Below, one piece after another: positions 292-16,390 of a DNA stretch of 16,461 nucleotides. Position 1 is the stretch's first letter. Each line of letters begins with the position of its first letter. Both the position numbers and the translations under genes were made by a program. The notes under the pieces are model-generated. The model made no database searches and was not told where the DNA came from. It saw nothing but the letters and a program-made list of their open reading frames with translations. This stretch comes from Bacteroidales bacterium (GTDB lineage: Bacteria; Bacteroidota; Bacteroidia; Bacteroidales; UBA932), in the NCBI GenBank assembly GCA_016281435.1, contig JAEEIQ010000057.1:1-16461 (forward strand), read 5' to 3'.

Positions 292-299
292 GTCCAAGA

Positions 300-417: not shown

Positions 418-433
418 GCTGGAATACAACCCC

Positions 434-469
434 TTAATAAAATAGCCTGTCCCCGAATGGGGGCAGGCT
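434..469 (-). terminator. Rho-independent terminator of the symporter-porin transcript
   Basis: An 11-bp stem (444-454 with 459-469, one G-U pair, GAAT loop in the + orientation) lies 24 bases beyond the porin stop. Read on the minus strand, the stem is followed by ATTTTATTAA, a U-rich run typical of intrinsic termination. On the + strand the following sequence (GCTTTCGTAT) is only weakly T-rich, so any role in stopping gdhA transcription would be secondary. Confidence 0.8.
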
Positions 470-492
470 GCTTTCGTATATTGTCTGTCAGT

Positions 493-1572
493 TTACCAGC
501 GGATGTAGGTTTGGAGCCAGAGTTCGCTGTAGGTGGAGTTGGTGATAGTCTGGTCGTTGTGCAGGCGGTACTCGAACTGGAAATTCAGGTTCTTGTGCAG
601 GCGGAAGTTGGCTGCCCAGGAGAACATGTCGTGGGAACTTTCCTTGTTGCCTTGGTCGCGGTACTCATCCCATTTGACATAGAGTTTCAGCCAGTCCTTG
701 ACGGGCACGCCGGCAGTGAAGTAGAAGGCGTCCGCGACTCCGCTGCCGTGCCATGTGGCGGCGACGGCGGGATCCTCAGGAGCGTCGCTGAAGAACTCCG
801 AAGCCTTGTGACCGAAGGACTTGGCGTATTCCGTGCGGAGCGTCCAGTTGTTGTAGTCGTATTTTGCTCCGAAGCTGTAGCGGTTGCGGTCCACGGTGAC
901 GGTGCCGTTGCTCCAGTTGCCCTTCCATCCGAATGCTCCGATCCAGAGCCCCTTTACCGGCTGGATCTGCAGGGTTCCGATGAGGTCCTTCTGCGCGTTG
1001 TTGTCGGCGCGGTTGATACCGTTGCCGTTGTAGAGTCCGAGCTGGTAGTGGAGGAGGTTGTGCTTGTCCTTGCCAATGGGCAGGAGGTCGCCCTGGATCT
1101 GGATTCCGAGGTCACGTCCGCCCATCGAAGCTTCGCCGCAACGGTCGCCCATGCCGGCGAGTTTCTTGACGAGAAGCGAGAAGTCGCCCACTCCCACGTC
1201 CCAGGGATTCATCGGGTTCTCGAAGGTAAAGGCCCTCTTGAACTGTCCCATCTTCACGGAGAAGGCCTTGTATTTTGCCCACTCGACGAAGAAGTCCTTG
1301 ACGTGCGGCGTGCCGTTGAGCTCGACCTGCACGCGGTAGTTGAACTGGTCGAAGATGCTGCCGTCGACGTATGCACGGATGAGGCGGGCGTTGAAGCCGT
1401 CGCCGCCGTGGGCGTCAGGACGGGTGGAGTATTTGTATGAACCGATGATGTATGCGCCGACCTTGGGCTTGCTTGCAAAGCCCGTCTGCTTATACCCGTA
1501 TTCGGGCGTTTCCTGCGCTGAAAGCGCGAGTGCGGCGAAGATGGCCGCCGCGGCCATGATTATCTTTTTCAT
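493..1572 (-). CDS. Phosphate-selective-type porin (OprO/OprP family) of the outer membrane
   Basis: Predicted 359-residue outer-membrane beta-barrel. Residues 1-20 (MKKIIMAAAAIFAALALSAQ) form a signal peptide. The mature part has the OprO/P-family look: an early barrel strand (GAYIIGSYKY, 39-48), GQFKRAFTFENP (109-120) and the GRDLGIQ signature (152-158), followed by repeated amphipathic strands such as YSFGAKYDYNNWTLRTEYA and a final aromatic residue (Trp). The family forms anion-favouring pores; phosphate specificity has been shown only for Pseudomonas members and should not be assumed here. The start lies 4 bases after the stop of the symporter gene, so the two are almost certainly cotranscribed. 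The pair gives an outer- and an inner-membrane step for one, probably anionic, substrate. A terminator follows the gene. Confidence 0.85.
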   Translation of the reverse strand: MKKIIMAAAAIFAALALSAQETPEYGYKQTGFASKPKVGAYIIGSYKYSTRPDAHGGDGFNARLIRAYVDGSIFDQFNYRVQVELNGTPHVKDFFVEWAKYKAFSVKMGQFKRAFTFENPMNPWDVGVGDFSLLVKKLAGMGDRCGEASMGGRDLGIQIQGDLLPIGKDKHNLLHYQLGLYNGNGINRADNNAQKDLIGTLQIQPVKGLWIGAFGWKGNWSNGTVTVDRNRYSFGAKYDYNNWTLRTEYAKSFGHKASEFFSDAPEDPAVAATWHGSGVADAFYFTAGVPVKDWLKLYVKWDEYRDQGNKESSHDMFSWAANFRLHKNLNFQFEYRLHNDQTITNSTYSELWLQTYIRW

Positions 1573-1576
1573 AGTA

Positions 1577-3031
1577 TCAGGCAGCTGTGAAAGGGAATAT
1601 CTTTGTAAGGAGGAAATAACCGAGCACGAAGCCCACCACTCCCATGATGATGCCGACCTTGGCCATCTGCGAGGTTTTCACGAGGCCGGTCGAGGATGCG
1701 ATGGCATTGGGAGGCGTGGAGATCGGGAACAGCATCGCGAGCGAAGCGCACATCGCTATGAACGGGATCATGGCGTACATTCCTCCGAGCGAAGTGAACT
1801 GGGCGTTGTTCGCCGCAGTCGGGTCTGCCATCGCCGTTCCGACTACCACGAGGATAGGGACGAGCAGGGCTGCCGTTGCGGAGTTGCTGATGAAGTTCGA
1901 GAGGAAGTAGCATACGAGGCCCGCGATGATGAGCACGAGGATGACGTTCATCGTGCTGAACGGGATCGCGTTGATGAGGACGGCCGCAAGGCCTGTCTTG
2001 TTGAGCCCGGTCCCGAGGGCGAAACCGCCGGCGACCAGCCAGAGTACGCTCCAGTTGATTTCCTTGATGTCTTCCTTGTTGAACACTCCGGTACAGGTGT
2101 AGACCGCGAGCGGAATCAGGGCGACGATGTTGGAGTTGATCTTGGTTATCTGCTCGGTGACCCAAAGAAGGATGGTGACGAAGAAGGTGATCCAGGCGAT
2201 GTAGTCCTTCGCGGTCCATTTATGGGACTTGGTCTCGATCTTGAGCTCTATCTCCTTGCTCTTGAAGGGGAAGAAAAGCTGCAGGATGACCCACGCGAGA
2301 AGGATCATGATGATGACGAAAGGAAGCATCCTGGACATCCAGGTTGCGAAGCCGATCTGGTATCCGGCGTTCTCGAGCGCGCCTATCGCAATGGCGTTGG
2401 GGGGCGTTCCGATCGGCGTTCCGATGCCTCCGAGGTTGGCGGCCACGGGGATTGAAAGGGCCAGGCCGACCTTTCCGGTCTCATCTTCGGGAAGTGCCTT
2501 GAGCACGGGGGCCAGGAAAGCCAGCATCATGGCGGCGGTGGCGGTGTTGCTCATGAACATCGAGAAAATCGATATGATGATGAGGAAGCCCAGCAGGACC
2601 ATCTTCGGTTTCTTCCCGAAGAGGCCCAGGAGTCCCTTGGCGATCACAGCGTCCATGCCGTACTTCGAGGCGACTATGGCCAGGACGAAACCGCCCATGA
2701 AGAGCATCACTACGGGATCCGCGAAGGAAGCCATTATGCTCTTGTAATCGACGAGCGTCCCGAATTCGGGCTTGCAGAAGAAGCCCAGCCCCTTGGTGGA
2801 TACGCTGAGGAGCATCACGACGATGACGATCAGCGATGTGGTCCAGTTCGGGATGATCTCAAACATCCACATGAGAGCCGCGAACACGAAGATCGCGATC
2901 ATGCGCTGCTGGACGACCGTGAGGGCGTCAATGCCGAAGGAAGACGTGGGAAGGGCCCAGAGAAGGATCGTTACGATCAGGACCAGAGGTAGAAGTACAC
3001 AGTACTTGACTGAAAAATTGCTTTTAGCCAT
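1577..3031 (-). CDS. SLC13/DASS-family sodium:dicarboxylate (anion) symporter
   Basis: Predicted 484-residue polytopic inner-membrane transporter of the divalent anion:sodium symporter family (VcINDY, SdcS, CitT relatives), which takes up dicarboxylates such as succinate, citrate-type acids or sulfate with Na+. The inverted-repeat signatures are present. The first half has SNT (161-163) and TPIGTPPNAIA (205-215); the second half has SNS (382-384) and STPPNAIAS (438-446). About a dozen hydrophobic segments span the length. The start is placed at ATG 3029-3031 (MAKSNFSV). A 15-residue longer reading back to 3076 would run through a good promoter (3064-3071) and is rejected. No Shine-Dalgarno is seen, as usual in this phylum. 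The gene is the first of a two-gene unit with the porin. The second SNT motif has Thr replaced by Ser, which is conservative. The exact substrate cannot be read from the sequence. Confidence 0.93.
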   Translation of the reverse strand: MAKSNFSVKYCVLLPLVLIVTILLWALPTSSFGIDALTVVQQRMIAIFVFAALMWMFEIIPNWTTSLIVIVVMLLSVSTKGLGFFCKPEFGTLVDYKSIMASFADPVVMLFMGGFVLAIVASKYGMDAVIAKGLLGLFGKKPKMVLLGFLIIISIFSMFMSNTATAAMMLAFLAPVLKALPEDETGKVGLALSIPVAANLGGIGTPIGTPPNAIAIGALENAGYQIGFATWMSRMLPFVIIMILLAWVILQLFFPFKSKEIELKIETKSHKWTAKDYIAWITFFVTILLWVTEQITKINSNIVALIPLAVYTCTGVFNKEDIKEINWSVLWLVAGGFALGTGLNKTGLAAVLINAIPFSTMNVILVLIIAGLVCYFLSNFISNSATAALLVPILVVVGTAMADPTAANNAQFTSLGGMYAMIPFIAMCASLAMLFPISTPPNAIASSTGLVKTSQMAKVGIIMGVVGFVLGYFLLTKIFPFTAA

Positions 3032-3063
3032 GTTTAAATGACAATTGCCTATAAATGCGGGCG

Positions 3064-3095
3064 CAAATATAGGCAATTATAACAAGAATAGCAAG
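3064..3095 (-). promoter_or_regulatory. Bacteroidetes-type promoter for the symporter-porin operon
   Basis: On the minus strand TATATTTG (3071 to 3064) matches the Bacteroidetes -7 box TAnnTTTG exactly, and CTTG (3095 to 3092) lies 20 bases upstream, the expected place for the -33 TTG/TTTG box. Transcription would begin near 3057, leaving a leader of about 26 bases before ATG 3031. The site sits just after the stop of the M16 protease gene (3102), with no terminator between, so read-through from the upstream operon is possible as well. Confidence 0.7.
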
Positions 3096-3101
3096 ATTCG
3101 C

Positions 3102-5912
3102 TTACTCTTCAGTATAGACTTCCACGAGTTTGTTTCCGGATGCGATACGGCGGGCTATGGAGCGTATTTCGCCGGGCTTGACGTCTCTTACAAGGGACTC
3201 GTAATCATAGCCGTACTGGATACCCCAGCGGACGAAACGGAGCATCCTGTCTTCCTGCGCGGAGATCGACTTCGAAATCCTGTTTTCCTCCTCCGCGCGG
3301 TGCTTTACGAGGTATTTGACGGCAAGTTCCATCTCCTGCGCCGTCGGGCCGTCCTTGCACATCCGGTCCATTTCATCCTGAATGTCCCTGAGGAGGATCC
3401 CGCGCATTTCGGGCCTTGTGCGGAATTCCACGTATGAACGGGAAGGGACCGCTGCCTCGTTGGAGTTTTCGGTGCGGAACGACACGCTGTACGCACCGCC
3501 CCTTTCTTCACGGATGAGGGCCAGGTAGCGGGCGGACATGATGTAGTTCAGGATGTCGAGCCTGGCCCTGTCCCTGACGGAACGTCCTCCGCCGTAGAAC
3601 CAGTTCCAGCTGATGTCGGTGTACGGGGAAGCTGCGGGAGGATTGGTCTCGCCAATGTCAAGGCGGCCCTTGAATGCGGGCTTTTCCGGCAGGTACTTTC
3701 CCTTGGAATAAGGGTAGGGGATATCCAGCGATGCTATATAGCGTTCCACAAGGCTCCGTATCTCCGCTTTGGGGAGGTCGCTGCAGATAACCGCTTTCAT
3801 GGAAGGGATGTCCCCGTAAAACCTCTTGAAGACTTCTTCGATGAGGGCCATGTCAGTGGCCTGGACCGCAGCGCTGTCGAGATCGTCCATCCACGGATGG
3901 CCTCTGTAGACGAGCTTGCGGCACTTCCTGTCGTAGAGTTCACGTTTGCTTTTCTGTTTTCCGAGGGATTTCAGCTGGACAGCCTTCTGGCGCTGCAGTT
4001 CACCCGGTTTTCCGAAGTATGGATCGTTGAGTTGGAGCCAGGCGGCCTTGAACGCCGTTTCGGCCTTGTCGGCGCGGGACGAAATCTCTATGCGCGCAGC
4101 CTGGTCGCCGCCGCTCAGGGTCAGGTTCACCCCGCTGAGTTCGGGGTAATTCTTCATCTCCGGCCTCGCGCAGCCGCGGAAGCCGGTCTGGCGTTTGTCG
4201 TAGGCTGCGGCAAAGCGCGATGCGGTCACCTTCGCAGGGTCGAAACTGCGGTAGCCCGTGTCGAAGAGCAGGGTCATCACGAGATGGCTGCCGTCCTTTA
4301 CCGGGGCGGCCTCCTTGTAGAACACCCGGGCCCCGTTTGAAAGGACCCATTTCTCCATGTCGGTTCCCTTCACTTCGGACACCGAGATTATGCTTCCGGG
4401 AGCGGCGCTGACGCTGAGGTCGAGGTCCGGATACTCCAGGAACATGGGCTCCGGCGATGATGAGTCAGCCTCCTCCACGGCTTTTTTCATCAACTCCGCT
4501 GAGGGAGCTATCCCGTTCTCCTCCACGTTGTTGTAGCAGTTGGAATAGATCTTCTCGCAGTCTGCGAACATGATGGCGGGATAGGGGGCGATGTCTTCCG
4601 CGGTGATTTTCTCGAGACATGCCTTCTGCAGGGATTTCATATCCCCGGGCATCACCAGGGGCGCGCCCTGCAGGAAGTTGCCGAGGATGGCCTTTACAAT
4701 GTCCGCGCTCGATGTCTCCTCACGTGGAGTCTCGACGTCAAGATGCATCCGGGCTGACAGGCCGAGCTTCGCCACTTCGATCTCTTCCCCGCTGACGCCG
4801 TGAAGCAGCAGGCGCCTCACTTCAGTCTCGGCGAAGGAAAGGCTCTCCAGGAGATTCTCCTTCTTTTTCGGTACGGCCGTCAGTAGCGAAACGTACATCT
4901 GCGGCTTGTAGCTTCCGGTCACGAGGGTTGCGCTTTGCACCGGTGCGTCCTTCCTCTTGCTGCGTTCCTTGAGACGGTCGGCGAGGATGGACGATACGAT
5001 CTGGCGGCAAAGGAAGTCCTTGTAGAATTCGACGCTCCCGGGATCGTTCACTGTCCAGCGCTGCTTGAAAAGGGCTTTCAAGGCCTGGTACTTGATTTCG
5101 GGATCGGTCATGTCTTTGTAAAGAGGCTCATCCTGGACTGGCGGGACGAAGCTCTCCTTGGGCTCCGGGTTGATAGGAGCGGGGATGTCGGAAAAGAGCC
5201 TTTTCACCCTTTCTTCCATCCAGTCGGTGTCGAAGTCTCCTACCACGATTATTGCCTGCAGGTCCGGGCGGTACCATTTATGGTAGAAGTCGAGGATCTC
5301 GTGCCTCTTGAATCCGTTGATGACTTCGAGGGTGCCGATCACGTCCCTTTCGGCCTGCTTCGAACCCTTGTAAATGAGCTCCATCTGGCGATTGTTCATG
5401 CGGCTGCGGGAGTCGTTGCGGAAACGCCACTCCTCGCTGATGACCCCGCGCTCCTCATCGAGCGCCTTCTGCTCGCAGGAGATGTCGCAGGACCAGTCGT
5501 GCAGGACCATGAGGACCGAGTCGGTGAATGATTCGCGCACGAGGGGCACCTTGGAGATGTTGTAGACCGTCTCCGTCCGCGATGTATAGGCGTTGACGTT
5601 GTAGCCGAAACGTACCCCTTCCTTCGCGAGGAAATCCAGGACGCCTTTGTCTGGATAGTGCTTCGTACCGTTGAAGGCCATGTGCTCGAGGAAGTGGGCG
5701 AGACCGTTCTGGTTGTCCTCCTCCTGCAGCGCGCCAACGTTGTGCGCGATGTAGAATTCGGCGCACCCTTCAGGCCTGGCATTATGGCACAGGTAATAGG
5801 TCAGGCCGTTACCGAGCTTTCCGACGCGGAATTCAGGGTCGGCGGGAATCGGCTGCGCGAATGCGGCTGCAGCGAGGAAGATAAGGAGTGCCGTGGAGGT
5901 TATTCGTTTCAT
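3102..5912 (-). CDS. M16-family (pitrilysin/PqqL/FusC-like) zinc metalloprotease, exported
   Basis: Predicted 936-residue double-length M16 peptidase. A signal peptide (MKRITSTALLIFLAAAAFAQ) sends it to the periplasm. The inverted zinc site HFLEH is at 73-77 (zinc ligands H73 and H77, catalytic E76), with the third ligand expected at E154 in LDEERGVISEEW, 77 residues further on as in pitrilysin. The C-terminal half carries the conserved ERGGAYSV segment (805-810 region) that completes the active site. Such enzymes enclose and cut unfolded polypeptides up to small-protein size. The length is close to E. coli PqqL and Pectobacterium FusC, periplasmic M16 proteases tied to TonB-dependent import. 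Start ATG 5912 was chosen because it gives a clean signal peptide; an ATG at 5933 would add MEGILLI in front. It is the fourth and last gene of the receptor operon, 25 bases after the DUF6850-like gene, with no terminator visible after it. Confidence 0.92.
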   Translation of the reverse strand: MKRITSTALLIFLAAAAFAQPIPADPEFRVGKLGNGLTYYLCHNARPEGCAEFYIAHNVGALQEEDNQNGLAHFLEHMAFNGTKHYPDKGVLDFLAKEGVRFGYNVNAYTSRTETVYNISKVPLVRESFTDSVLMVLHDWSCDISCEQKALDEERGVISEEWRFRNDSRSRMNNRQMELIYKGSKQAERDVIGTLEVINGFKRHEILDFYHKWYRPDLQAIIVVGDFDTDWMEERVKRLFSDIPAPINPEPKESFVPPVQDEPLYKDMTDPEIKYQALKALFKQRWTVNDPGSVEFYKDFLCRQIVSSILADRLKERSKRKDAPVQSATLVTGSYKPQMYVSLLTAVPKKKENLLESLSFAETEVRRLLLHGVSGEEIEVAKLGLSARMHLDVETPREETSSADIVKAILGNFLQGAPLVMPGDMKSLQKACLEKITAEDIAPYPAIMFADCEKIYSNCYNNVEENGIAPSAELMKKAVEEADSSSPEPMFLEYPDLDLSVSAAPGSIISVSEVKGTDMEKWVLSNGARVFYKEAAPVKDGSHLVMTLLFDTGYRSFDPAKVTASRFAAAYDKRQTGFRGCARPEMKNYPELSGVNLTLSGGDQAARIEISSRADKAETAFKAAWLQLNDPYFGKPGELQRQKAVQLKSLGKQKSKRELYDRKCRKLVYRGHPWMDDLDSAAVQATDMALIEEVFKRFYGDIPSMKAVICSDLPKAEIRSLVERYIASLDIPYPYSKGKYLPEKPAFKGRLDIGETNPPAASPYTDISWNWFYGGGRSVRDRARLDILNYIMSARYLALIREERGGAYSVSFRTENSNEAAVPSRSYVEFRTRPEMRGILLRDIQDEMDRMCKDGPTAQEMELAVKYLVKHRAEEENRISKSISAQEDRMLRFVRWGIQYGYDYESLVRDVKPGEIRSIARRIASGNKLVEVYTEE

Positions 5913-5937
5913 AATCAGCAGGATGCCCTCCATCGCC

Positions 5938-7521
5938 CTAGAAGTTGCAGCCGAGGCTGACGGAAGCGACGTTGCGTGTCCGGCCGTCGAGGTACTGCGG
6001 ATCGGAAAGGAGGGTGACAAAGCTGTCGGAAATCTTCAGGTAGGGGACCAGCTTCTTATAACTGAGAATGGCCCAGCCTAAATCAAGGGATACTCCAGCC
6101 CTGGAGGCGGTTTCATATTCGAACTGCCTGTTCAGCCAGTCGTCGAAGGATTTTGCCTTTGAGGAGCCGCCGTAGGAGCCGTCAGCTTTGGGAGTGCCGC
6201 TCCCTGTGACGAACATGAGGCCGGTCCCTACCGAAAAACAGTTCCCCCGGGTCTTGATGTTGCGGCTTGCACGGACGGCCGCCGCCAGATTGAGGACAGA
6301 CTGGTCCCTGTAGTCCGGGTATATGACAGTATGTTTGGAACTCATAAGGGCATTGGCCTCTGCGCGCAGGGTCCAGTCCGGGAGGTATCCGCGCCTGTCT
6401 TTTTCGTAAGTGTAGGCAAGACGGGCCCCGATATCAGTGCGCGTAAGGGTCTGGTTCTGTCCGTGATATTCAATGGTCGTGTTCATGCCGGACACGGCCT
6501 TGTATTCGTACGAGTTCGTGAAATTGGAGAGAAGCTTGAACTCTCCGGCCGCTTCGATACGGTGAAGGTCCCTTCCGGACGGTATGTCCAGCGTTCCTTC
6601 CAGTTTCGCTTCCGGGCCGCTGAATTCGCAGAAAACGACAGAAGTCGAGGTCCTGCTTCCGAAGTACCCGGTTCTCCACAGTCCGGTCAGTTGCCCGTAG
6701 ATGCGGGTTGAATTGCCCGAGGCCATCTGGACGGCCAGCCCGTAGCGGTCACTGGTAAGCGGGCGGACATTCGACAGGGAGACGTGGTAGTGGTCTCCGT
6801 CGAAATCCTCCTTGCTGCCAAGAAATGCGCCCTGGTCGACCAGGATGTCGTAGTCCGTGTCGACGGTCCCGAAAAGACCGGCGCTGAGTTGCTCGAGAGT
6901 GTGACGGTAAACGAGGTTGGCGCCTATTGTAAATGAATCCGAGAGCTTGAACATGACCCCCGGTGCGAGATCCAGGTCCGCAAGTACGTTGAGGAACCTC
7001 GGATCCTTGAATTTTGCCTGGTCTGCGGCTGTGTAGTCCAGACGGATGCCGGCGCTGAACGAGTTGCTGAAAGAATAGGACAGGGCTCCGTTCAGGACGT
7101 AGGTCTCCCTTTTCTTTTTCCCGACACTGGACATATCCCCTTCGAGGAAGTTGATCGCATTGTCGGATGGGTTCAGAAGGACTTCGCCACCCATATCCTT
7201 CCCCTGGAACTGGGAATATGCCAGAACTCCGCTGAAAACAATCTTGTCGGAAATCCTTCTGAATGATTTTGTAAAGGCGGATGCTTCCCAGGAATCCGGC
7301 GACCCTTCAATGGGTATGACAGCGCCGTCCGCCTTGTCGAATCGGGCATTCGCTACTGAAAACCTTTCGTTTCCGACGGTAGCCAGACCTGCCGGGTTGC
7401 TGAAACCGAGCAGAGGATTGGCATCCATGGTATGCTGGTAATCGCGCACTGGAGCCTGCCCCGCGGCCTGCGCCGCGAGGCAGAGTACCAATGTGCAAAC
7501 GAAAGGTAAGCGGAATCTCAT
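5938..7521 (-). CDS. Outer-membrane beta-barrel protein, DUF6850-like
   Basis: Predicted 527-residue exported protein. Residues 1-22 form a signal peptide ending AAQAAGQ. The early motif NPLLGFSNPAGLATV resembles the N-terminal plug or first strand seen in several Bacteroidetes outer-membrane barrels. The rest alternates polar and hydrophobic or aromatic residues with turns and ends in Phe (SVSLGCNF), the usual last residue of a barrel. It resembles the DUF6850 outer-membrane family, often found next to DUF4876 lipoproteins and TonB-dependent receptors; that assignment is from memory of the family, not a search. Function is unknown. It begins 3 bases after the stop of the lipoprotein gene and precedes the M16 protease, so it probably forms part of the same envelope complex. 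FadL-like transport is an alternative reading. Confidence 0.65.
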   Translation of the reverse strand: MRFRLPFVCTLVLCLAAQAAGQAPVRDYQHTMDANPLLGFSNPAGLATVGNERFSVANARFDKADGAVIPIEGSPDSWEASAFTKSFRRISDKIVFSGVLAYSQFQGKDMGGEVLLNPSDNAINFLEGDMSSVGKKKRETYVLNGALSYSFSNSFSAGIRLDYTAADQAKFKDPRFLNVLADLDLAPGVMFKLSDSFTIGANLVYRHTLEQLSAGLFGTVDTDYDILVDQGAFLGSKEDFDGDHYHVSLSNVRPLTSDRYGLAVQMASGNSTRIYGQLTGLWRTGYFGSRTSTSVVFCEFSGPEAKLEGTLDIPSGRDLHRIEAAGEFKLLSNFTNSYEYKAVSGMNTTIEYHGQNQTLTRTDIGARLAYTYEKDRRGYLPDWTLRAEANALMSSKHTVIYPDYRDQSVLNLAAAVRASRNIKTRGNCFSVGTGLMFVTGSGTPKADGSYGGSSKAKSFDDWLNRQFEYETASRAGVSLDLGWAILSYKKLVPYLKISDSFVTLLSDPQYLDGRTRNVASVSLGCNF

Positions 7522-7524
7522 TGC

Positions 7525-8838
7525 TTATTTCTTGAGAGCAGCGACCTTTCTCATGTGGAAGTCAGTGGCCGAGTTGTTGGTGTCCATGAAGACGATCTTG
7601 GCGCCATTGGCAATCGAAGCTTCGGCATCGATTCCTGAAGGGTCTGCATCATCCTCGTTGACAGCGCCCGAGTAGTTATAGACGAGCTTGCCTTCGTTCT
7701 CGGCGATTGCCTCGGTGGCTTCCTTGTCGACGTTACGGTAAGTGGAGTAGCCGAGCTTGTTGGTATAGACCTGATAACCCAGGTTGATGGATGTCGGGAA
7801 ACGGAGGAAGTACTTCGAAGGGTCGGCCGCAGGCCAGAGTTCGAGAGCGTCGAGCACCCAGCCGATGGGGACTTTGACGAAGTTCGAAGCGAGGCTGGTG
7901 GGCTGCTGGTTGTCCTGATTCTTGGAGTCCTTGACGTATTCCGTGAGATCCACTCCTTCTTCGGGGATAAGGATGAAGGGAGATGCGGACTGGATAGGGA
8001 AGGGCCATGCGGTACCGGTTCCGAAGACGTAGGTCTTCATATGGTGGCTGGTCGGTATGGTCTCGGAGGGAGCCGGATAGTTGTCCTCCTTCTTGAAAGT
8101 GGTCTCCAGGTCGTAGAGGCAGAAGTCTGCATTGCTCAAGTCCAGGGACTGTGAATAGGTCTTGGAATGGTCCACTGCTCCGTTGATGGAGATTACAATC
8201 TGGGAATAAGGGGCGATCTTGACCTCGGTGCCCTTCTGGAACCACCAGATGGCGTATGATGCGGGGCACCAGCCTGCGGTTTCGTAAGCGATGATGCCTT
8301 TATCGTCGTACGTGTATTTGTTCGTTGCGGGCAGGGCCGTGATCTGGGCCATGGCGAGTCCCATCCTGCTGGCGTCGACTTCGGTGTCGGAGTTGTTGTA
8401 GATGACGATATATTTGTCAAGCTGGTAGGTCTTGCCGTCGGTCCCGGTCGCTCCGCCGTTGTAGCACTCCTTGATGATGAGCTGGCTGGACTTGGATTCG
8501 GCGAGGGTGACCGTGGCTTCGGCGGCAGCACCCGCTTCTACTACGACGCTCGCACTTCCGTTATAGTTGAACAGGGAGCCGTCAATTGATTTCTTGAAGG
8601 AGACAGTGGCGGTATAGACACCGAAGGGAACTTTGAAAAGAGCAACTCCGTCGGCTCCGGTGACGGCTTCGAAGTTGGCCGAACCATTGGATAAGGTGAC
8701 GGCAATGCCTTCTTCCTCGAGGATGCCTCCGTTGAGGGAGAGATTGATCCCTACTTCTTCCGTTTCGGGACCTTTGGGCTGGCAGGAGACTGCCACGAAG
8801 GCGAGTGCAACTGCAATCAGACTGAGGATCTTTTTCAT
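7525..8838 (-). CDS. DUF4876-like surface or periplasmic lipoprotein
   Basis: Predicted 437-residue lipoprotein. The signal peptide ends in a lipobox (FVAVSC) with the lipidated cysteine at 19; the following QPKGPETEE contains acidic residues that might serve as a surface-export signal, though it is not a clear match. Residues about 28-110 look like a carboxypeptidase-regulatory or Ig-like sandwich (GVALFKVPFGVYTATVSF). From about 115 onward the protein resembles DUF4876, with LIIKECYNGGATGTDGK and YIVIYNNSDTEVDASRMGL. That stretch reads like a lamin-tail-type fold, which is an inference. It sits 19 bases after the TonB receptor gene and 3 bases before the barrel gene. There is no SusD-type protein in the operon, so this lipoprotein is the natural candidate for the receptor's ligand-binding partner. 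Confidence 0.75.
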   Translation of the reverse strand: MKKILSLIAVALAFVAVSCQPKGPETEEVGINLSLNGGILEEEGIAVTLSNGSANFEAVTGADGVALFKVPFGVYTATVSFKKSIDGSLFNYNGSASVVVEAGAAAEATVTLAESKSSQLIIKECYNGGATGTDGKTYQLDKYIVIYNNSDTEVDASRMGLAMAQITALPATNKYTYDDKGIIAYETAGWCPASYAIWWFQKGTEVKIAPYSQIVISINGAVDHSKTYSQSLDLSNADFCLYDLETTFKKEDNYPAPSETIPTSHHMKTYVFGTGTAWPFPIQSASPFILIPEEGVDLTEYVKDSKNQDNQQPTSLASNFVKVPIGWVLDALELWPAADPSKYFLRFPTSINLGYQVYTNKLGYSTYRNVDKEATEAIAENEGKLVYNYSGAVNEDDADPSGIDAEASIANGAKIVFMDTNNSATDFHMRKVAALKK

Positions 8839-8857
8839 AATGCTATGAATTTAATGG

Positions 8858-11848
8858 TTAAAATTTGAGTCGTAAGGTAAGTCCGTAGTAGAACTTGGGG
8901 ACGTAGCTTGCAGCGGAGACGTATGTCTTGGTCCTGGTTGACCACAGCTGCGCCCTGTTCACCAGGAAGTTGTTTGCATAGAAAGATATGGAGGCAAGGT
9001 CCCCGATCTCCTTTGTCACGCTGAAATTGGCGCTGAAGAAGGGGGAATAGTAATCCTTCTCGAAGATGTAGAGATAGTTGGAACCGTAGGAAAGGAGTTT
9101 CAGGTCGCTGAACAACTTGCTGTCCCCGGCTTCCCTTGCAGCTTTCAGGTCAGCCAGATAGTCCCTCGGAGTCGGGTCGTCGTAAGAGCTGTAGAACTCC
9201 GGATATCTGATCACATAAGAATTCCCGTCATAGATCGAAGCGCCGTCGATGGTCGAAAGGATGTCGGCTTTGTCGCTGACGACCTTAGCAATTTCCTTGC
9301 CGTCGGGGGTTTCGCTCAGGGTACGTGAGTATTTGACCAGGCTTGCTTCCACCTTTACGGACAGGATCATCCTTATGTCGGGTATGTGCGTGGTCAGGGT
9401 GACATTGGTGCGCAGGGTGGTGGATTCGGATCCGTTCGAGCTGGCATTCCCTCCGAGATAGTGACCTATATATTTATAGGGCATGCCGTCCTGCGCGGAG
9501 CGCTGGGTGACGGGGGCGTACTGCTCCCATGTGTAGGAAAGGCCCTTGTAGTGATACCATGCGCCGTCGAGTCGGATGTCCGTATGGATGGGTTTGATCC
9601 TCACGAAGTCCACTATCCATTCGAGACCGTAGCGGTTTATGGGATTCGCTTCGTTGCCGGGATAGTAGCGGGTACAGAGTTCCTTGTATGTCTTGTTGGC
9701 AAGGGTCTGGGATGGAAGCAGGCCGTTCTTGTCGGAAACCGTTATCACTCCGGTAGTCCGGTCCGCGGTGTAAACCCGGTCGTCGGAGGGGATGGTTACC
9801 GCTCCGATCGAGGAGTCCGGGGTATAGGTATAGCTCATCCTGTCGTAGGACGTGTAAAGCTGGTAGGCATCCAAAGTCCGGTTCCAGTATGCGGACAGGG
9901 AAATCTTGTTGCCGAAGAGATTGGTCTCCACACCTATCTCCGCCATCCGGTTCCGCTGCCATTTCAGGTCAGGGTTGTATTCGACAGCCCTCGGCATGAT
10001 GTACCAGGCGGTAAAGGACTCGTTGTTGGAATTGGTCGGTGACGTGTAAACCGAGATGTCCCTGTAGGTCGGCATGGGGAAGAGCACGCTGAAGGAGGGG
10101 AGTTTCACGGCCTCTCCCCAGCTGGCGCGCACAGCGAGCGAACGTACCTTCTTCCTGGCCCGCCCCTGGGCCGGGAGAATTGTGTACTTCGCATTGAAAC
10201 GCGGTGAGACGGAGGAAGTGACGCCATAGGCGGATCCTTTGATTACGGTGTTGTCGTTGCGTATTCCCGCTATGAGGTTGATACGTCCTTTCCCGATGGG
10301 GAACATGAAGTTCTCCTCGGCGTAGAACGCTATGTTGTGCATGACGGGATTGTCGCAATAGCGATATTCGCGGAACGTGGGGGCGGTGGACATGTCCTCG
10401 GAGTACTGGCCGATGCCGAAGTTCCTGTCGGTACTCCAGTCCGCTCCGGCTTTCAGCTTGCTGTTCGCCAGGGCGAAGTGGTGGCTGATATTGGCCTTTA
10501 CCGAGAGCCTCGTGGTCATCGGGCGGTCGTCGTCGCACATTATGTTGTACCAGTGGCCGCCTGGGATGTACATCACGGGAGGCACGTCTTCGGAGTACGG
10601 GACGGCCATGTAATAGCCGGCTTCCCTGCCGTGCAGTACGGTTTTGTTGATGGCGGATGAATTATATGTCCTTTCCCTGCCCGACTTGTCGGACCAGGCC
10701 AGAGACCCGTCGACCTCGATATTGGTAAGCCATGGCTTGCTGAGCAGCCAGTTCACGGAGAAGTTGCCTCTGACGGCATTATCCGAGACCTTGGACCACG
10801 TGCCCTGGACTGCGTCCGGATCGGCAGAAGTGTTCATGCCGCCGACGTTGCCTGTGAGTCCCATGCTGAGACGCAGTGGGTGGGATGTGAAAATGCCCGA
10901 ATTGAAGAAATTCATGTACGAAACGGACATCTGCTCCCTGCGGTAAGAAGTGTAGGGCGACATCTGCTTGGAGACCGACTCGGTCAGTTCCAGGCTGGCG
11001 TTCAGTACGCCGATCTGACGCCCGGATTCCGTGACTCCGAGCCCGAACCCTTTGGAAACGGAGGTCTGCTTCGTGTTGGGGCTGGTGGACGCCGTGAACA
11101 TCCAGGGGGTCTTTCCCTTCTTAAGGTTGACCTTCACTATACCGGAAGACATGTCGCCGTACTCCACGGAAGGGACACCTGTGATGACTTCCACAGATTC
11201 GACGTTTGTCGAGGCTATGCTGTTGGTGGATACGCCCTTGACAGTGTTGGTCGTGGATGCGGTGGCGTACGAGGCGTTGTTCGACAGCCGGACCCCGTCG
11301 ACTTCGACCGCGGTTCCGAAGGAGGCGTTGCCGGATTCGCTGCTGCCGGCGCGCAGGTTGAACTGCTGCTCGGAGGTGAGGAGAGGGTTGGCGGTCGCTC
11401 CTCCGGGCAACAGGCTGGAGATGTCGGCCACGTTCATCATCTGGACATGGTCCAAGGCGGTACGGTCTATCGTACGGGACGTTGTGGCTGAATTCGCATC
11501 CTCCTTGGCGGTCACGACGGCGCCTTCGAGGGAGAGGTTGTCAGGATTGATGGAAATCTTGAATGTCGGTATGTCCTTGGAAATCTGGATTTCGCGGCTC
11601 CATGAAACATATCCGAGGCATGAGACGGTGACTCTGTTCTTGCCCGCCGGGACATTCCGGACGGAGAACTTTCCCTGTGCATCGGCGACGGCCCACTGTT
11701 CCGTGCCTTCCAGGACCACGGTGGCGAACTCCACCGGAGCCCCGGTGGACGCATCAGTGACGGTGCCCGAAAAAACGTATCCTTTCTGGGCAAAGACGCT
11801 TGCGGAAAACAGCGTCAGCAAAAGCGATATGAGCAGTTTTCTGGTCAT
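8858..11848 (-). CDS. TonB-dependent outer-membrane receptor with N-terminal carboxypeptidase-regulatory-like domain
   Basis: Predicted 996-residue receptor for TonB-powered import across the outer membrane. A signal peptide (1-20, ending SASVFA) is followed by a CarboxypepD_reg-like domain (about 25-100: GTVTDASTGAPVEFATV, GKFSVRNVPAGKNRVTVSCLGY). A likely TonB box/linker (LEGAVVTAKE, 107-116) follows, then the plug domain (about 125-245, with VEVDGVRL and SSGIVKVNLKKG). The remainder is a 22-strand-type barrel ending LRLKF. The start is ATG 11848; a GTG 12 bases upstream is in frame but leaves a poorer signal peptide. The gene heads the operon and is preceded by a good promoter. It lacks the SusD partner of glycan systems, so a siderophore, metal complex, peptide or protein ligand is more likely than a polysaccharide. 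The ligand itself is not identifiable. Confidence 0.93.
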   Translation of the reverse strand: MTRKLLISLLLTLFSASVFAQKGYVFSGTVTDASTGAPVEFATVVLEGTEQWAVADAQGKFSVRNVPAGKNRVTVSCLGYVSWSREIQISKDIPTFKISINPDNLSLEGAVVTAKEDANSATTSRTIDRTALDHVQMMNVADISSLLPGGATANPLLTSEQQFNLRAGSSESGNASFGTAVEVDGVRLSNNASYATASTTNTVKGVSTNSIASTNVESVEVITGVPSVEYGDMSSGIVKVNLKKGKTPWMFTASTSPNTKQTSVSKGFGLGVTESGRQIGVLNASLELTESVSKQMSPYTSYRREQMSVSYMNFFNSGIFTSHPLRLSMGLTGNVGGMNTSADPDAVQGTWSKVSDNAVRGNFSVNWLLSKPWLTNIEVDGSLAWSDKSGRERTYNSSAINKTVLHGREAGYYMAVPYSEDVPPVMYIPGGHWYNIMCDDDRPMTTRLSVKANISHHFALANSKLKAGADWSTDRNFGIGQYSEDMSTAPTFREYRYCDNPVMHNIAFYAEENFMFPIGKGRINLIAGIRNDNTVIKGSAYGVTSSVSPRFNAKYTILPAQGRARKKVRSLAVRASWGEAVKLPSFSVLFPMPTYRDISVYTSPTNSNNESFTAWYIMPRAVEYNPDLKWQRNRMAEIGVETNLFGNKISLSAYWNRTLDAYQLYTSYDRMSYTYTPDSSIGAVTIPSDDRVYTADRTTGVITVSDKNGLLPSQTLANKTYKELCTRYYPGNEANPINRYGLEWIVDFVRIKPIHTDIRLDGAWYHYKGLSYTWEQYAPVTQRSAQDGMPYKYIGHYLGGNASSNGSESTTLRTNVTLTTHIPDIRMILSVKVEASLVKYSRTLSETPDGKEIAKVVSDKADILSTIDGASIYDGNSYVIRYPEFYSSYDDPTPRDYLADLKAAREAGDSKLFSDLKLLSYGSNYLYIFEKDYYSPFFSANFSVTKEIGDLASISFYANNFLVNRAQLWSTRTKTYVSAASYVPKFYYGLTLRLKF

Positions 11849-11877
11849 GTGCAGAGTCACTCCAATGCTTCAAATCA

Positions 11878-11909
11878 CAAATTTAACTGAATAATTATTT
11901 AAATACAAT
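11878..11909 (-). promoter_or_regulatory. Bacteroidetes-type promoter for the receptor-lipoprotein-barrel-protease operon
   Basis: On the minus strand TAAATTTG (11885 to 11878) is an exact TAnnTTTG box. ATTG (11909 to 11906) is placed exactly 20 bases upstream as the -33 element. Transcription would start near 11871, about 23 bases before ATG 11848. The site lies in the 96-base gap shared with the divergent S46 gene. That gap is strongly A/T-rich and could hold operator sites for both directions, but no clear dyad for a regulator and no equally good promoter toward the S46 gene were seen. Confidence 0.7.
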
Positions 11910-11944
11910 GAAAAATACTCATTATTTATGATTAATATTGCGGT

Positions 11945-14005
11945 ATGAAAAGGATAATAACAGTCATTATCGCCGTCCTGACCTTGTGCATGCCGCTCGT
12001 GGCAGACGAGGGGATGTGGATGGTGGGCACTTCCAAACCTGCGGTCAAGGCTCTTGCAAAAGCCGTAGTATCAATTGATTTCATGGGGACGGGGAGCTTC
12101 GTCTCAGACGACGGCCTCGTCATCACGAACCACCATGTCGCCTATGCCGACGTGTTCGCTCTCGGAACGAAGGAACACAATTGGCTCGAAGAAGGTTTCT
12201 GGGCTCGCGAGCGCTCCCAGGAGTTGCCCGTTCCCGGCCGGAAGGTCCAGATTCTCAAGGAGACCATAGATGTCACGTCCGTGGTCGACTCACTGATTGC
12301 TTCCGGCAGCGTCAAGAAGGGAATGATGATGATGCGCAAGCTCAGCTGGATCCTTGAAAAGCGCTATAAGGAGAAAACGGGGCTTGAGGCGAGCCTGAGC
12401 AGCATGTGGAGGGGGACGAAGTACTACATCGACCTGTACGAGGAGTACGCTGACGTCCGCCTGGTAGCGGCGCCGCCCGTCTGCATCGCGGCATTTGGAG
12501 GAGACGTGGACAACTGGGAATGGCCGCAGCACAAGTGCGATTTTGCCATGTACAGGGTCTATACGGCCCCGGACGGGAAGCCGGCGGAGTATGCCCCCGA
12601 GAATGTGCCGCTGAAGTCTCCGGCAAGGTACAAGGTTTCCATGAAAGGATACAAGGAGGGGGATCAGGCGACGGTCATCGGTTTTCCTGGCCGCACGAGC
12701 AGGTATGCTGCTTCGGCGAGGGTGGAGTACCTTACCGAGGACGAGTTGCCGGTGGTCAGCGGCGTCCGGGCCAGGCACATGGAGATCATTTCTGCATGGA
12801 TGGACAAGGATCCCGAAGTGCGCAGGCTCTATTCCGACTATTATTTCGGCCTTTCCAATTTCCAGGAGCTGGCGCTTGGCCAGATGCAATGCAACCGCCG
12901 CTTCGGCGTCGCAGCCGCCAAGCAGGAAGAGGAACGCGGGCTTCAGGCATGGATCGAGGCCGATCCGGCGAGAAAACAGAAGTGGGGCACCCTTCTTTCC
13001 GATCTCAAGGCCAAGTATGACGCGGTAAAGGATATTCAGCTCGATATCCTCTGGTACAGGGAGTGCATAGCGCGCGGGATGCGGTTTGAGGCAGTCGCCT
13101 CCAGGACCATGTCCCTAAAGCGTAAGGGCGGACCCGAAAGGGTGAAAGGAGTCCTCAATGCCGGCCGACGCAATTACGAAGAGAGGGACCTCCGGGTCGA
13201 GAGGGATCTTTTCCGCGCCAATCTCGAGATGTTCCTGGAGAATCTCAGCCCAGAGAGGCTCGGGCCCTATCAGAAGGAACTCAAGGCCCGTTTTGCCGGG
13301 GATTACGACGCGCTGTGCGCTTATCTCTGGGACGACAGCTGGATGACCGATCCCGTCCGCATTGAGAAGTACCTGAATTCCGAATCCACCCTTGAAGACA
13401 ATCTCGACGAGTATCTGGCAGATCCGCTGGTGCGTTTCTTCGAGGATATCAAGATGGCTGATTTCAGCGCCGTGTACACCCGCCTCCAGGGCAAGCCGAC
13501 CATCAACGACCTCGGGCAGGAATATGCCCATGCCCTTTATGAGTACCGCGCGGCTTCGGGGCTTCAGCAGTATCCCGACGCCAATTCCACCATGCGCATC
13601 AACTACGGCAAGGTCCTCGGTTACGAGAGGGAGGACGGCCTTGTCTGCCGTTGGTATACGACCATGGCGGGACTGCTCGCCAAGCACAATCCTTCCTCAC
13701 ATGACTTCTGCCTGATTCCGGATTGGAAGGCGGTCGCGCAGACGGCGGATCCCGCGATGAAGGTGGACTTCCTTACCGACAACGACAGTACGGGTGGCAA
13801 TTCCGGTTCCCCGGTGCTGAACCGGAAGGGGGAACTGATCGGCCTTCTTTTTGACGGGGTCAAGGAATCCCTCTCCGGGGATTTCTACTTTGTCCCCGAA
13901 GTCAACCGCAGCGTCAACGTGGACATACGTTATGTGGTCTGGGTGCTGCGCAACTACGGCCGCATGGACAAGGTCCTTTCCGAGATGGGGCTTGCTTCCA
14001 AATAA
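11945..14005 (+). CDS. S46-family dipeptidyl-peptidase, DPP7-like specificity residue
   Basis: Predicted 686-residue exported serine exopeptidase that removes dipeptides from peptide N-termini in the periplasm. The signal peptide runs to about residue 20 and is followed by the family's DEGMW start. The catalytic triad is visible: H64 in TNHHVAY, D199 at the end of WEWPQHKCDF, and S620 in GGNSGSPV. N190 and W191, which bind the substrate amino terminus in this family, are conserved. Eighteen residues after the serine is G638 (LLFDG), the position that is Gly in DPP7 (hydrophobic P1) and Arg in DPP11 (acidic P1), so DPP7-like preference is inferred. Oddities: about 20 residues are missing between GMW and the trypsin-like core compared with Porphyromonas DPP7, and the two cysteines usually flanking the catalytic His region are Gly and Val here. 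It is divergent from the receptor operon. Confidence 0.93.
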   Translation: MKRIITVIIAVLTLCMPLVADEGMWMVGTSKPAVKALAKAVVSIDFMGTGSFVSDDGLVITNHHVAYADVFALGTKEHNWLEEGFWARERSQELPVPGRKVQILKETIDVTSVVDSLIASGSVKKGMMMMRKLSWILEKRYKEKTGLEASLSSMWRGTKYYIDLYEEYADVRLVAAPPVCIAAFGGDVDNWEWPQHKCDFAMYRVYTAPDGKPAEYAPENVPLKSPARYKVSMKGYKEGDQATVIGFPGRTSRYAASARVEYLTEDELPVVSGVRARHMEIISAWMDKDPEVRRLYSDYYFGLSNFQELALGQMQCNRRFGVAAAKQEEERGLQAWIEADPARKQKWGTLLSDLKAKYDAVKDIQLDILWYRECIARGMRFEAVASRTMSLKRKGGPERVKGVLNAGRRNYEERDLRVERDLFRANLEMFLENLSPERLGPYQKELKARFAGDYDALCAYLWDDSWMTDPVRIEKYLNSESTLEDNLDEYLADPLVRFFEDIKMADFSAVYTRLQGKPTINDLGQEYAHALYEYRAASGLQQYPDANSTMRINYGKVLGYEREDGLVCRWYTTMAGLLAKHNPSSHDFCLIPDWKAVAQTADPAMKVDFLTDNDSTGGNSGSPVLNRKGELIGLLFDGVKESLSGDFYFVPEVNRSVNVDIRYVVWVLRNYGRMDKVLSEMGLASK

Positions 14006-14010
14006 ATGAT

Positions 14011-14018
14011 TATATTTG
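14011..14018 (+). promoter_or_regulatory. Probable promoter -7 box for the membrane ferredoxin gene
   Basis: TATATTTG matches the TAnnTTTG consensus exactly and begins 6 bases after the S46 stop codon. The best upstream element is TTG at 13992-13994, only 16 bases away instead of about 20, so the -33 part is weak. Transcription would start near 14025, which leaves about 14 bases before ATG 14039 and argues against an in-frame ATG at 14006 as the start. Confidence 0.5.
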
Positions 14019-14038
14019 TGAATCGACTTATAACTAAT

Positions 14039-16072
14039 ATGGCAAAGAAATCCACAATCCGCAGCAACTGGCCAAAGTATGTGCTCCAGTGGGGCACTCT
14101 GGCCGCGTTGATATTCTTCCTCAGCGGCCTGGCCGCGAAGCTGTTCCCCAAGATGGAGCCGGTCAACCCTGAGGCTTACTGTCCCATGGGCGGACTTGAA
14201 GCCCTGGCGACCTATGCCCAGAGGGGCTCCCTTCCCTGCTCTATGACCACGATGCAGATCCTGATGGGGATAGTGCTGGCCGTGGCCGTCATCTTCCTGA
14301 GCAAGCTCTTCTGCGCCTATCTCTGCCCGATAGGGACGATAGAGGATCTTCTGATGAAGGCGCGCAAGGCCCTTGGCATCAACGCCGTCAACATCAAGAC
14401 CGGCAGTGTGGCCGACAAGATCCTGCGAATCTTCAAGTACGGGCTCCTTTTCTGGATTGTCTATATGACCGTGTCCTCGAGCGAGCTGTTCTGCAAGAAC
14501 ATAGACCCGTATTATGCGGTGGCGACCGGCTTCAAGGGGGAGATCACGCTTTGGATGAGCCTGACCGCCCTCGGCCTCGTAATCCTGCTCGGCTTCGTCA
14601 TCAACCGCTTCTGGTGCAAGTACATCTGCCCTCTGGGAGCCATCTCCAACACCCTGAAGTTCTGGACTTGGCTCGTGGCCCTAGCGCTCCTCTGGTGGGC
14701 GCTGACCGCGCTCGGACTCAAGCTCAGCTGGGTGTGGCTGCTCGGCGCGTTCTGCCTCGGCGGCTACCTGCTGGAGATCCTGAGCGGCAAGCCAAAGCTC
14801 CAGGTCATGCATGTCCTCATCGACCAGGACAGCTGCGGCCGCAAGTGCTATTCCTGCCAGAAGAACTGCCCCTATAGCATAGACGTCCCGTCATTCGGGG
14901 AGGCGGTCACTTCGGTCGACTGCACGCTTTGCGGCGAGTGCGTCGCTTCCTGCCCGACGAAGGCCCTCAGGATCGGCGTCGTTCCCGGAGCGAAGGAGCG
15001 CAAGTTCACGAAGTTCATCCCGCCCGTCGTCACGGCGGTGCTGGTTGCCCTCGCCCTCATCTTCGGCGGGAAGTTCGAGATTCCTACCATCTCCGAGACC
15101 TGGGGCGTGGAGCAGGGCATGACCCTGAAGACTGTCAGGGTCAGCGGACTCAAGACCGTCAAGTGCTACGGTTCTTCCATGGCTTTCAAGGCCCGCATGG
15201 AAAAGGTTCCCGGCGTGCACGGCGTAAAGACTTATGTCGGCAGCCATACCGTCGTTGTCTCTTACGATCCGTCAGTCACTACCGCCGAGAAGATCGAGCA
15301 GCAGATTTTCGTCCCTTCGCACTTCAAGGTGGCTACTCCGGATCCCGTCGCGATGCCCGAACTCAAGGTTGTCGGCCTGCGCGTTGAAAAGATGTACGAC
15401 AAGATGGACCTGAATTATCTCGGACTGCAGTTCCGCGGTGAGGAGGAAAGCGGCATCTTCGGAGTCGAATCCGAGTATGATTGCCCCGTGCTGGTGCGGG
15501 TGTACATGGATCCTTCGAAGGCGCATGACGAAGCCTGGTTCAAGGAAATCGTGAACCGCAAGAAACTCATCATGCCCATCCACGGCGGCGGTACCAAGGA
15601 AACTCCCATGGACCTCAAGTTCGTCAAGATGGAAAAGGAGAGCGCCCTGATCGCCACTCCGGACTTCATGCACCGCATGTTCAACGGCTTCAAGGCCGAG
15701 TACAACGGCAAGTATCCTTCCGCCGACACCACCGTCGTCCGCAAGAGGATCGAGGTTTATGCCGGCAAGCCCCAGTTCATGCTGGAGTTCGAGGAAGACC
15801 GCTTCGAGAAGCCCATCATCACCAGGGTGCTGCCCTTCCTCAGCAACCATATCTCCAAGGAGGAAGGTGTCATCGGTACCTATGTGGTCCTGAATGAGAA
15901 CCTCAAGCCCGCCCTGAGGATCCGTTTCGCTTCTCCCGCGACCGCAGACCGCATCAGGCAGCTGCTCGGCATGGAGAAGTGGAGCATCACCTACAAGGGC
16001 GGCGAGGTCAAGGAAGTCGATGCCAAAATCGCCTTCCCCAACCCCGGTACAGTCCGCCCCTGGGCTGAGTGA
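14039..16072 (+). CDS. NapH-like membrane 4Fe-4S polyferredoxin with C-terminal HMA-type domains
   Basis: Predicted 677-residue inner-membrane electron-transfer protein. The N-terminal half is a NapH-type membrane domain with about six hydrophobic segments and paired cysteine motifs CAYLCP (92-97) and CKYICP (193-198), plus YCPMGGLEAL near residue 47. Two ferredoxin clusters follow: C266, C270, C273, C277 and C295, C298, C301, C305, the last with the standard CxxCxxCxxxCP spacing. After one more membrane segment (about 328-343) there is an HMA-like domain (about 362-430) in which the metal-binding CxxC is reduced to a single cysteine (C376, VKCYGSS). The remaining ~245 residues include two further stretches with a similar beta-alpha-beta pattern. 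The start at 14039 (MAKKST) is preferred over 14006, which overlaps the promoter. A redox role in metal or quinone chemistry is likely, but partner and substrate are unknown. A strong terminator follows. Confidence 0.85.
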   Translation: MAKKSTIRSNWPKYVLQWGTLAALIFFLSGLAAKLFPKMEPVNPEAYCPMGGLEALATYAQRGSLPCSMTTMQILMGIVLAVAVIFLSKLFCAYLCPIGTIEDLLMKARKALGINAVNIKTGSVADKILRIFKYGLLFWIVYMTVSSSELFCKNIDPYYAVATGFKGEITLWMSLTALGLVILLGFVINRFWCKYICPLGAISNTLKFWTWLVALALLWWALTALGLKLSWVWLLGAFCLGGYLLEILSGKPKLQVMHVLIDQDSCGRKCYSCQKNCPYSIDVPSFGEAVTSVDCTLCGECVASCPTKALRIGVVPGAKERKFTKFIPPVVTAVLVALALIFGGKFEIPTISETWGVEQGMTLKTVRVSGLKTVKCYGSSMAFKARMEKVPGVHGVKTYVGSHTVVVSYDPSVTTAEKIEQQIFVPSHFKVATPDPVAMPELKVVGLRVEKMYDKMDLNYLGLQFRGEEESGIFGVESEYDCPVLVRVYMDPSKAHDEAWFKEIVNRKKLIMPIHGGGTKETPMDLKFVKMEKESALIATPDFMHRMFNGFKAEYNGKYPSADTTVVRKRIEVYAGKPQFMLEFEEDRFEKPIITRVLPFLSNHISKEEGVIGTYVVLNENLKPALRIRFASPATADRIRQLLGMEKWSITYKGGEVKEVDAKIAFPNPGTVRPWAE

Positions 16073-16095
16073 TCCGCCCTGCGCTAATGATTCCG

Positions 16096-16132
16096 GTGCC
16101 AGGCCCAGCCATGGGTCTGGCACTGTTCTTTT
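16096..16132 (+). terminator. Rho-independent terminator of the membrane ferredoxin gene
   Basis: A 12-bp stem (16096-16107 with 16112-16123, one G-U pair, GCCA loop) is followed directly by TGTTCTTTT. It lies 23 bases beyond the TGA stop of the ferredoxin gene. Stem and T-tract are both seen directly. Confidence 0.9.
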
Positions 16133-16148
16133 GTCCCGCCCCCGCCGG

Positions 16149-16325: not shown

Positions 16326-16390
16326 CCCGTTGCCCTGGCCCCGGCCCGCCTGGTCTCTTCCCCGGCGACGTGGCCGGGCTTAATGAAATT

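Follow-up and report, generated by a model that had tools for sequence, protein, structure and literature searches.

What might a TonB-dependent receptor (TBDR) import when its operon also encodes an exported protease? The question is raised by a stretch of 16,461 nucleotides from a Bacteroidales bacterium (GCA_016281435.1, contig JAEEIQ010000057.1, positions 1-16,461 of the forward strand), the whole of which we call the window. Four of its minus-strand genes encode a TBDR, a DUF4876 lipoprotein, a DUF6850 barrel and an M16 metalloprotease, and with their relatives they form a real, conserved and modular system. We suggest, with a probability of roughly 0.4, that this is a Bacteroidota protease-associated import system which takes up an iron-bearing polypeptide and digests it in the periplasm. 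Judged from sequence, the best reading is an operation like that of the Fus and PqqL systems, yet the receptor sequence confers no membership among them. The main features are the following.

8858-11848, minus strand: TBDR comprising a CarboxypepD_reg N-terminal domain, a plug and a barrel; its signal peptide ends in SVFAQ
7525-8838, minus strand: DUF4876 lipoprotein, 19-base gap from the TBDR gene; lipobox Cys19
5938-7521, minus strand: DUF6850 outer-membrane beta-barrel, 3-base gap from the DUF4876 gene; signal peptide
3102-5912, minus strand: exported M16 metalloprotease of two halves with an HFLEH zinc motif, 25-base gap from the DUF6850 gene; signal peptide AAFAQ
11945-14005, plus strand: S46 dipeptidyl-peptidase, divergent from the receptor operon; Gly638 aligns with DPP11 Arg673
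14006-16072, plus strand: NapH-like membrane polyferredoxin with an HMA-like domain; its open reading frame (ORF) begins directly after the S46 stop
11849-11944, between the divergent genes: intergenic region of 96 bases with an AT-rich dyad, without a feoAB-type ATACC-N8-GGTAT box
11878-11908, minus strand: receptor-operon promoter TTG-N20-TAAATTTG, a match to the Bacteroidetes-form consensus

An earlier reading of the window (the original prediction) had described four closely spaced genes with export signals and without SusD or a glycan enzyme. The ORF coordinates reproduce the gaps, Pfam supports the four identities and export signals are seen by eye on all four proteins. Neither SusD nor a glycan enzyme was matched among the nine window proteins scanned with Pfam, and the same scan gave no ABC ATPase/permease, DUF4857 or PepSY_TM partner. 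The receptor, scanned from a start at 11842 that is two codons short of the ATG at 11848 (an in-frame GTG lies at 11860), scores 70 bits for the TonB_dep_Rec barrel, 34 for Plug and 65 for CarbopepD_reg_2. DUF4876 scores 76 bits, DUF6850 134 bits over profile positions 1-464, and the protease 78 bits for Peptidase_M16 and 96 for M16_C. The boundary of the proposed unit was too narrow, however, because relatives also keep the divergent S46 and NapH genes and often a C69 peptidase.

To which extent these genes belong together can be judged from related loci. A protein search with DUF4876 gave 945 relatives among 7999 scored candidates; from the 120 listed, we took 30 to build an alignment. Scanning contigs with this alignment returned 305 coding relatives. 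We kept the 80 most similar loci, 78 of which gave a called DUF4876 gene; L051 and L076 stand outside the counts. Genes were called by a simple longest-ORF script, homology matches first. Downstream order was judged in the 61 loci whose downstream flank spans 5 kb or more, and the 39 loci flanked by 9 kb or more on each side are termed fully flanked. The loci are interrelated and the counts carry no kinship correction; the promoters of L033 and L023, for instance, are near-identical. A TBDR lies upstream of DUF4876 in all fully flanked relatives (39/39), DUF6850 comes next after DUF4876 in 61/61 loci and M16 follows DUF6850 directly, within 3.5 kb and on the same strand, in 39/61. The gene order thus exceeds chance, and we reject the idea of M16 as a chance neighbour. 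The 25 fully flanked M16-type loci contain S46 (20), NapH (14), C69 (11) and M3 (1), and no ABC gene. In the 14 others we find ABC, DUF4857 and PepSY genes (8 each), S46 (4), C69 (3) and M16 elsewhere (1). ABC/DUF4857 genes are hence seen in 0/25 M16-type versus 8/14 other fully flanked loci.

Beyond the clade of the window the core has other partners. Of the 393 genomes surveyed across the order, 71 have PF16215 (DUF4876) and 50 have DUF4857, 49 of them over the cut-off; according to lists compared by eye, 47 of these 49 also carry PF16215. We fetched regions around 64 DUF4876 places, hand-chosen from this genome survey, the second part mainly for genomes without DUF4857; 62 gave a called DUF4876 gene (L158 and L245 are outside the counts). 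An ABC ATPase or DUF4857 is present in 25 of the 62, often with a permease, a 183-amino-acid lipoprotein-like gene and PepSY_TM. HEAT-type proteins occur in 12 loci (one an ABC locus), M16 in 5, S46 in 6 and NapH in 6 (two of them ABC loci). M16 or S46 lies beside none of the 25 ABC loci versus 9 of the 37 others (Fisher p=0.008, kinship uncorrected). Moreover, DUF4857 is absent from 15/15 window-type genomes and from the M16-linked G333 and G289, and present in 9/9 hand-picked genomes with ABC-type or other loci. One receptor core is therefore found with either an ABC/PepSY module or a FusC/PqqL-like protease set, never with both in one operon in these samples. The claim that M16 is kept with the other three genes stands within the clade of the window but not in the wider family, where the core often lacks it; since the three-gene core is widespread without M16, the protease is an exchangeable module.

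The barrel is a constant part of this core. A home-made DUF6850 profile marked only 11 of 39 wider loci, but Pfam then found the family in 56/56 barrel candidates beside wider DUF4876 genes; judged by length and place, the other six of the 62 loci lacked a candidate, but in one of these six, L133, Pfam found the barrel. Some distant DUF4876 genes stand with the partners seen in the window. L251, a region that contains the L221 gene, reads TBDR-DUF4876-DUF6850-564-amino-acid gene-NapH-S46-S46-small gene-M16, and L239 reads NapH-TBDR-DUF4876-DUF6850-M16. L235 has NapH and a cut-off S46, and L232, L238 and L249 have S46. These layouts suggest that the same partners have met the core more than once. 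As a separate observation, 12 of the 62 loci (L136, L137, L240 and others) encode exported proteins of 720-760 amino acids starting SFAIVVD or similar. A gingipain-like (C25) identity, suspected by eye for these HEAT-type neighbours, is unsupported: Pfam finds HEAT_2 in three of four scanned and gives the fourth no match, and a PDB sequence search with one of them returned nothing. In the genome of the closest relative of the window, a second DUF4876 locus (L157) adjoins a DUF4953 met-zincin, another protease class.

The M16 protease had been proposed to be related to FusC and PqqL, and this is borne out by sequence. Its closest solved chain is 9ldy ('Peptidase, M16 family'), followed by PqqL (E 2e-64), the nearest among named solved proteins. 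The chains 6b03/6b05/6brs ('Putative zinc protease'), which we take to be FusC, match at E about 1e-35, and MPP and IDE follow far behind. In a single midpoint-rooted FastTree run of 43 hand-picked sequences, without support values, 21 operon M16s including that of the window cluster together, separate from 16 M16s without a known link that come from these or other genomes. The DUF4876-linked M16s of L031/L077/L133, L151/L221 and L034 fall among the unlinked sequences, outside the group of the window. At L151, a ChaN-like haem-binding protein (PF04187; 11291-12247, plus strand) is located between the DUF4876 core and three M16-family genes.

The divergent S46 protein matches its family over most of its length, carries the catalytic serine motif GGNSGSP as in DPP7 and DPP11 and has Gly638 aligned with DPP11 Arg673. 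The residue at this position presumably tells the pocket type, glycine denoting a DPP7-type pocket, so that the protein fits the DPP7 type; it differs from known S46 peptidases in being linked to an operon of a TonB receptor and M16. In the window, L001, L033 and L068, the S46 and NapH genes lie upstream in divergent orientation; in L015, L017, L027, L029, L041 and others they are codirectional and downstream. Hence, their linkage to the cluster outlasts rearrangement. The HMA-like domain of the NapH-like protein is just below the Pfam cut-off (24.5 versus 24.8 bits), and its C-terminal part has no Pfam match.

How does this arrangement compare with known importers? Fus (Pectobacterium FusA/B/C) and YddB/PqqL (E. 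coli) likewise have a TonB receptor beside a periplasmic M16 of the FusC/PqqL sort; these known systems are iron-regulated. The window receptor, in contrast, matches no PDB chain at E<=0.01 (phmmer, single sequence), although YddB (6ofr) and presumably also FusA are in the PDB. The cluster also differs in its DUF4876 lipoprotein, DUF6850 barrel, S46 and NapH and in its Bacteroidota host, and while Fus has a dedicated FusB-like TonB, no TonB domain was found among the nine window proteins scanned. RagAB/SusCD importers, which handle peptides and glycans, pair a TonB receptor with a lipoprotein partner, as here, but the lipoprotein of the window is DUF4876 rather than SusD, and an extra barrel and proteases are added. 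One study describes protease-associated import systems around FusA homologues throughout Proteobacteria. Of its 24 clusters, 12 include FusC and some contain other proteases or cytochrome c peroxidases, a likeness to the S46 and NapH genes found here; the word 'Bacteroidetes' is absent from the main text (PMC6793856). The proposed Bacteroidetes counterpart of Fus thus stands as regards an M16 of FusC/PqqL type, conserved in the clade with further peptidases (S46, C69), and does not stand as regards a receptor of FusA/YddB type.

The window shares its TBDR-DUF4876-DUF6850 core with systems described for their iron response. BT3625-33, BT1938-39 and PG1019-22 include a TBDR with DUF4876; where the window type has M16/S46/NapH, BT3625-33 has genes for an ABC ATPase, DUF4857 and PepSY, and a HEAT protein is listed for BT1933-39 (PMC10434189). 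The DUF6850 barrel is seen in the wider loci read here, while the PG and BT operons are compared by description. Calling the system undescribed was therefore too strong, as DUF4876/TBDR operons are published as induced by iron starvation (PMC10434189) and a DUF4876 structure exists (4q1z, BT_1938). In the Creative Commons-licensed PMC literature searched, as far as its texts were accessible, we found no account of an M16-DUF4876 system; this literature also gave no mention of DUF6850 and no account of what DUF4876 operons import.

Is the system linked to iron? On iron depletion, PG1019-22 rises 20.8-214.5-fold and BT3625-33 36.7-128-fold, placing DUF4876 operons among the strongly iron-starvation-induced genes of P. 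gingivalis and B. thetaiotaomicron; BT1933-39, whose listed set includes the HEAT protein, rises 3.5-7.4-fold (PMC10434189). A haemin study gives, in its own sign convention, a change of about -5.4 log2 for a P. gingivalis DUF4876 gene and a TBDR, and HmuY and flavodoxin move the same way (PMC10470040). Furthermore, a pattern form of the ATACC-N8-GGTAT palindrome stands upstream of 25 of 109 receptors versus 0.55% of shuffles. In the L034 and L059 genomes, the palindrome precedes FeoA-FeoB, pyruvate formate-lyase (PFL), a hemerythrin-domain gene, two porin-like genes and DUF4876 TBDRs, and, with one mismatch, flavodoxin. We inspected 15 of the 30 loci returned by genome palindrome scans. G004 has seven exact copies, four of them before gene starts (a DUF4876-type TBDR, a porin-like gene, PFL, the hemerythrin-domain gene); the other three lie between the end of rubrerythrin and the next gene start, downstream of a response regulator and within a gene. 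G005 has two exact copies, one before FeoAB and one before a porin-like gene; flavodoxin and DUF4876 TBDRs there have one mismatch. A reversed-pattern control matched as often in one-mismatch genome scans (20 against 21, 18 against 15), which argues against an operator. Behind an exact palindrome, both scanned genomes encode a porin-like protein of 430-436 amino acids without Pfam match (L160:111-1403, minus strand; L175:1596-2906, plus strand), a candidate new member of the palindrome regulon.

Of twelve feoA upstream regions from window-type genomes, ten could be parsed; six show the palindrome and four do not. With a matrix of 13 sites, 7 of them before feoA and some found with the pattern first seen at receptors, 42 of the 108 receptors exceed the shuffled 99% level: 22/37 of ABC type, 4/29 with M16 and S46, 5/17 other M16 (the window being one of the 12 below the level), 1/1 with M16 and ABC, 1/4 with S46 only and 9/20 others. 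The matrix from the 7 feoA sites alone places 43 of 108 over the 99% and 38 over the 99.9% level, L013 and L057 included. Searching 15 window-type genomes with flavodoxin gave a relative in just one, and flavodoxin is therefore useless as an iron marker in them. Taken together, expression literature and palindrome counts tie the family to iron, the M16-type branch in part and the window not directly; we reject the view that iron regulation is demonstrated for the window itself, whose receptor promoter lacks the box.

In the mechanism that we propose, the DUF4876 lipoprotein, which is presumably surface-exposed, and the TBDR, aided by the DUF6850 barrel, would capture and import an iron-bearing polypeptide. 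The FusC/PqqL-like M16 would cut it in the periplasm, and S46, together with C69 in many relatives, would then trim the pieces. The NapH-like polyferredoxin may send electrons outward, reducing the freed ferric iron for FeoAB. In relatives, the digestion module would be swapped for the ABC/DUF4857/PepSY module on the same receptor core. It is possible, if a more tentative view than import and digestion as such, that the core is a general Bacteroidales iron-cargo importer with exchangeable release modules, and that its proteolytic M16/S46/NapH module, assembled more than once, strips iron from a whole imported protein as a non-homologous counterpart of Fus. Plant ferredoxin in the rumen would be the obvious candidate cargo, and the whole-protein iron piracy described for Proteobacteria around FusA homologues would then extend to rumen/gut Bacteroidales. 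The either-or pairing of the core offers a route to the cargo, namely what M16 and S46 cut.

Several observations weigh against uptake of an iron-bearing polypeptide. The iron-depletion data come from DUF4876 operons that are not known to be M16-type. The window receptor promoter scores below threshold with both matrices (3.7 bits versus a 99% null of 7.7 with 13 sites; 6.9 versus 9.3 with feoA sites only), the box is present at only 9 of 46 M16-type receptors without ABC (the window counted among the 46), and of the six genomes with a box before feoA (L006, L014, L017, L033, L068, L078) only that of L078 also has it before the receptor. DUF4876 shows no family-wide set of metal ligands: besides the lipobox cysteine only H224 is widely kept (54/63). 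NapH also lies beside two ABC loci (L147, L150), and in L034 an M16 gene three genes upstream of an ABC-type core is an exception to the exclusion at a looser scale. S46 and C69, moreover, would suit amino-acid feeding equally well. The core might indeed take oligopeptides for carbon and nitrogen, with M16, S46 and C69 (M3 in one locus) as a periplasmic digestion line in a branch unrelated to iron. Several peptidase families side by side and an S46 of DPP7 type would fit this, and the absence of the box from the window receptor promoter, as from 37 of 46 M16-type receptors and from five of the six just named, leaves room for general peptide feeding in the M16-type branch. We nevertheless regard it as doubtful, since there is no SusD/RagB partner, DUF4876 operons elsewhere are iron-induced (PMC10434189), the box is present at L013, L057, L078, L024, L011, L067 and L045, and NapH and ChaN are unexpected in a feeding operon.

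Import of a small molecule, haem or a ferric siderophore, with M16 and S46 processing something else or clearing damaged envelope proteins, seems unlikely. Sister systems with ABC/DUF4857/PepSY genes are iron-induced, ChaN lies beside L151 and long M16 proteases are widespread (16 of 18 genomes searched have a relative at E<=1e-20), all of which speak for it. Yet the operon M16s group apart from other M16s in the tree, M16 follows the barrel directly in most loci and a distant core again has M16, S46 and NapH as neighbours. The cargo might also be a peptide siderophore or metallophore of another microbe, from which M16 and S46 would free the metal by cleaving the chelator. This would reconcile peptidases with iron control, and peptides are frequent substrates of M16 enzymes, but among the neighbours scanned there is no biosynthesis gene and no known peptide-chelate gene, and we consider it highly improbable. 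Digestion of an imported iron-bearing polypeptide remains our preferred reading.

Within the core, the lipobox Cys19 of DUF4876 is identical in 30/30 aligned relatives, and the lipoprotein is probably a capture protein beside the receptor. Its subfamily in the window carries WWF (198-200) and SGIDAE (399-406) segments, whose tested columns are gaps in 50/50 wider DUF4876 proteins aligned, marking the branch of the window. L234:8044-9999 (plus strand) and L243:8886-10964 (minus strand) have DUF4876 domains within longer proteins of 650-690 amino acids, and the regions fetched around them contain no called receptor. For the DUF6850 barrel, FadL is among the Foldseek matches with a query TM of 0.25-0.34, and we do not class the barrel as FadL-type; the VIA list is headed by CymA, FhaC and porins, and as VIA lists re-examine Foldseek's matches only, absence from them carries no meaning. 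An N-x-A/G motif near the N-terminus is present in 33 of 73 barrels, and the consensus of 56 wider relatives contains NPA, the motif of the FadL hatch. At L057, a second, divergent DUF6850 protein (15753-17192, plus strand; 32.7 bits) directly follows M16.

Three sites in the window match the Bacteroidetes promoter form, and one of them faces the receptor (11908-11878, minus strand). A sigma-70 scan found 3 sites versus 6.0 expected and is no guide to promoters. Rfam (gathering thresholds) and tRNA scans of the window gave no match. Two genes downstream form a neighbouring unit:

1577-3031, minus strand: DASS symporter
493-1572, minus strand: porin-like protein, Porin_4 just below the cut-off

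This pair, which has a promoter-like site of its own at 3094-3064, is probably not part of the import system. It is also found near the cluster in L013, which has the genes of the window with S46 and NapH swapped, and in L057, which has the same layout plus one gene.

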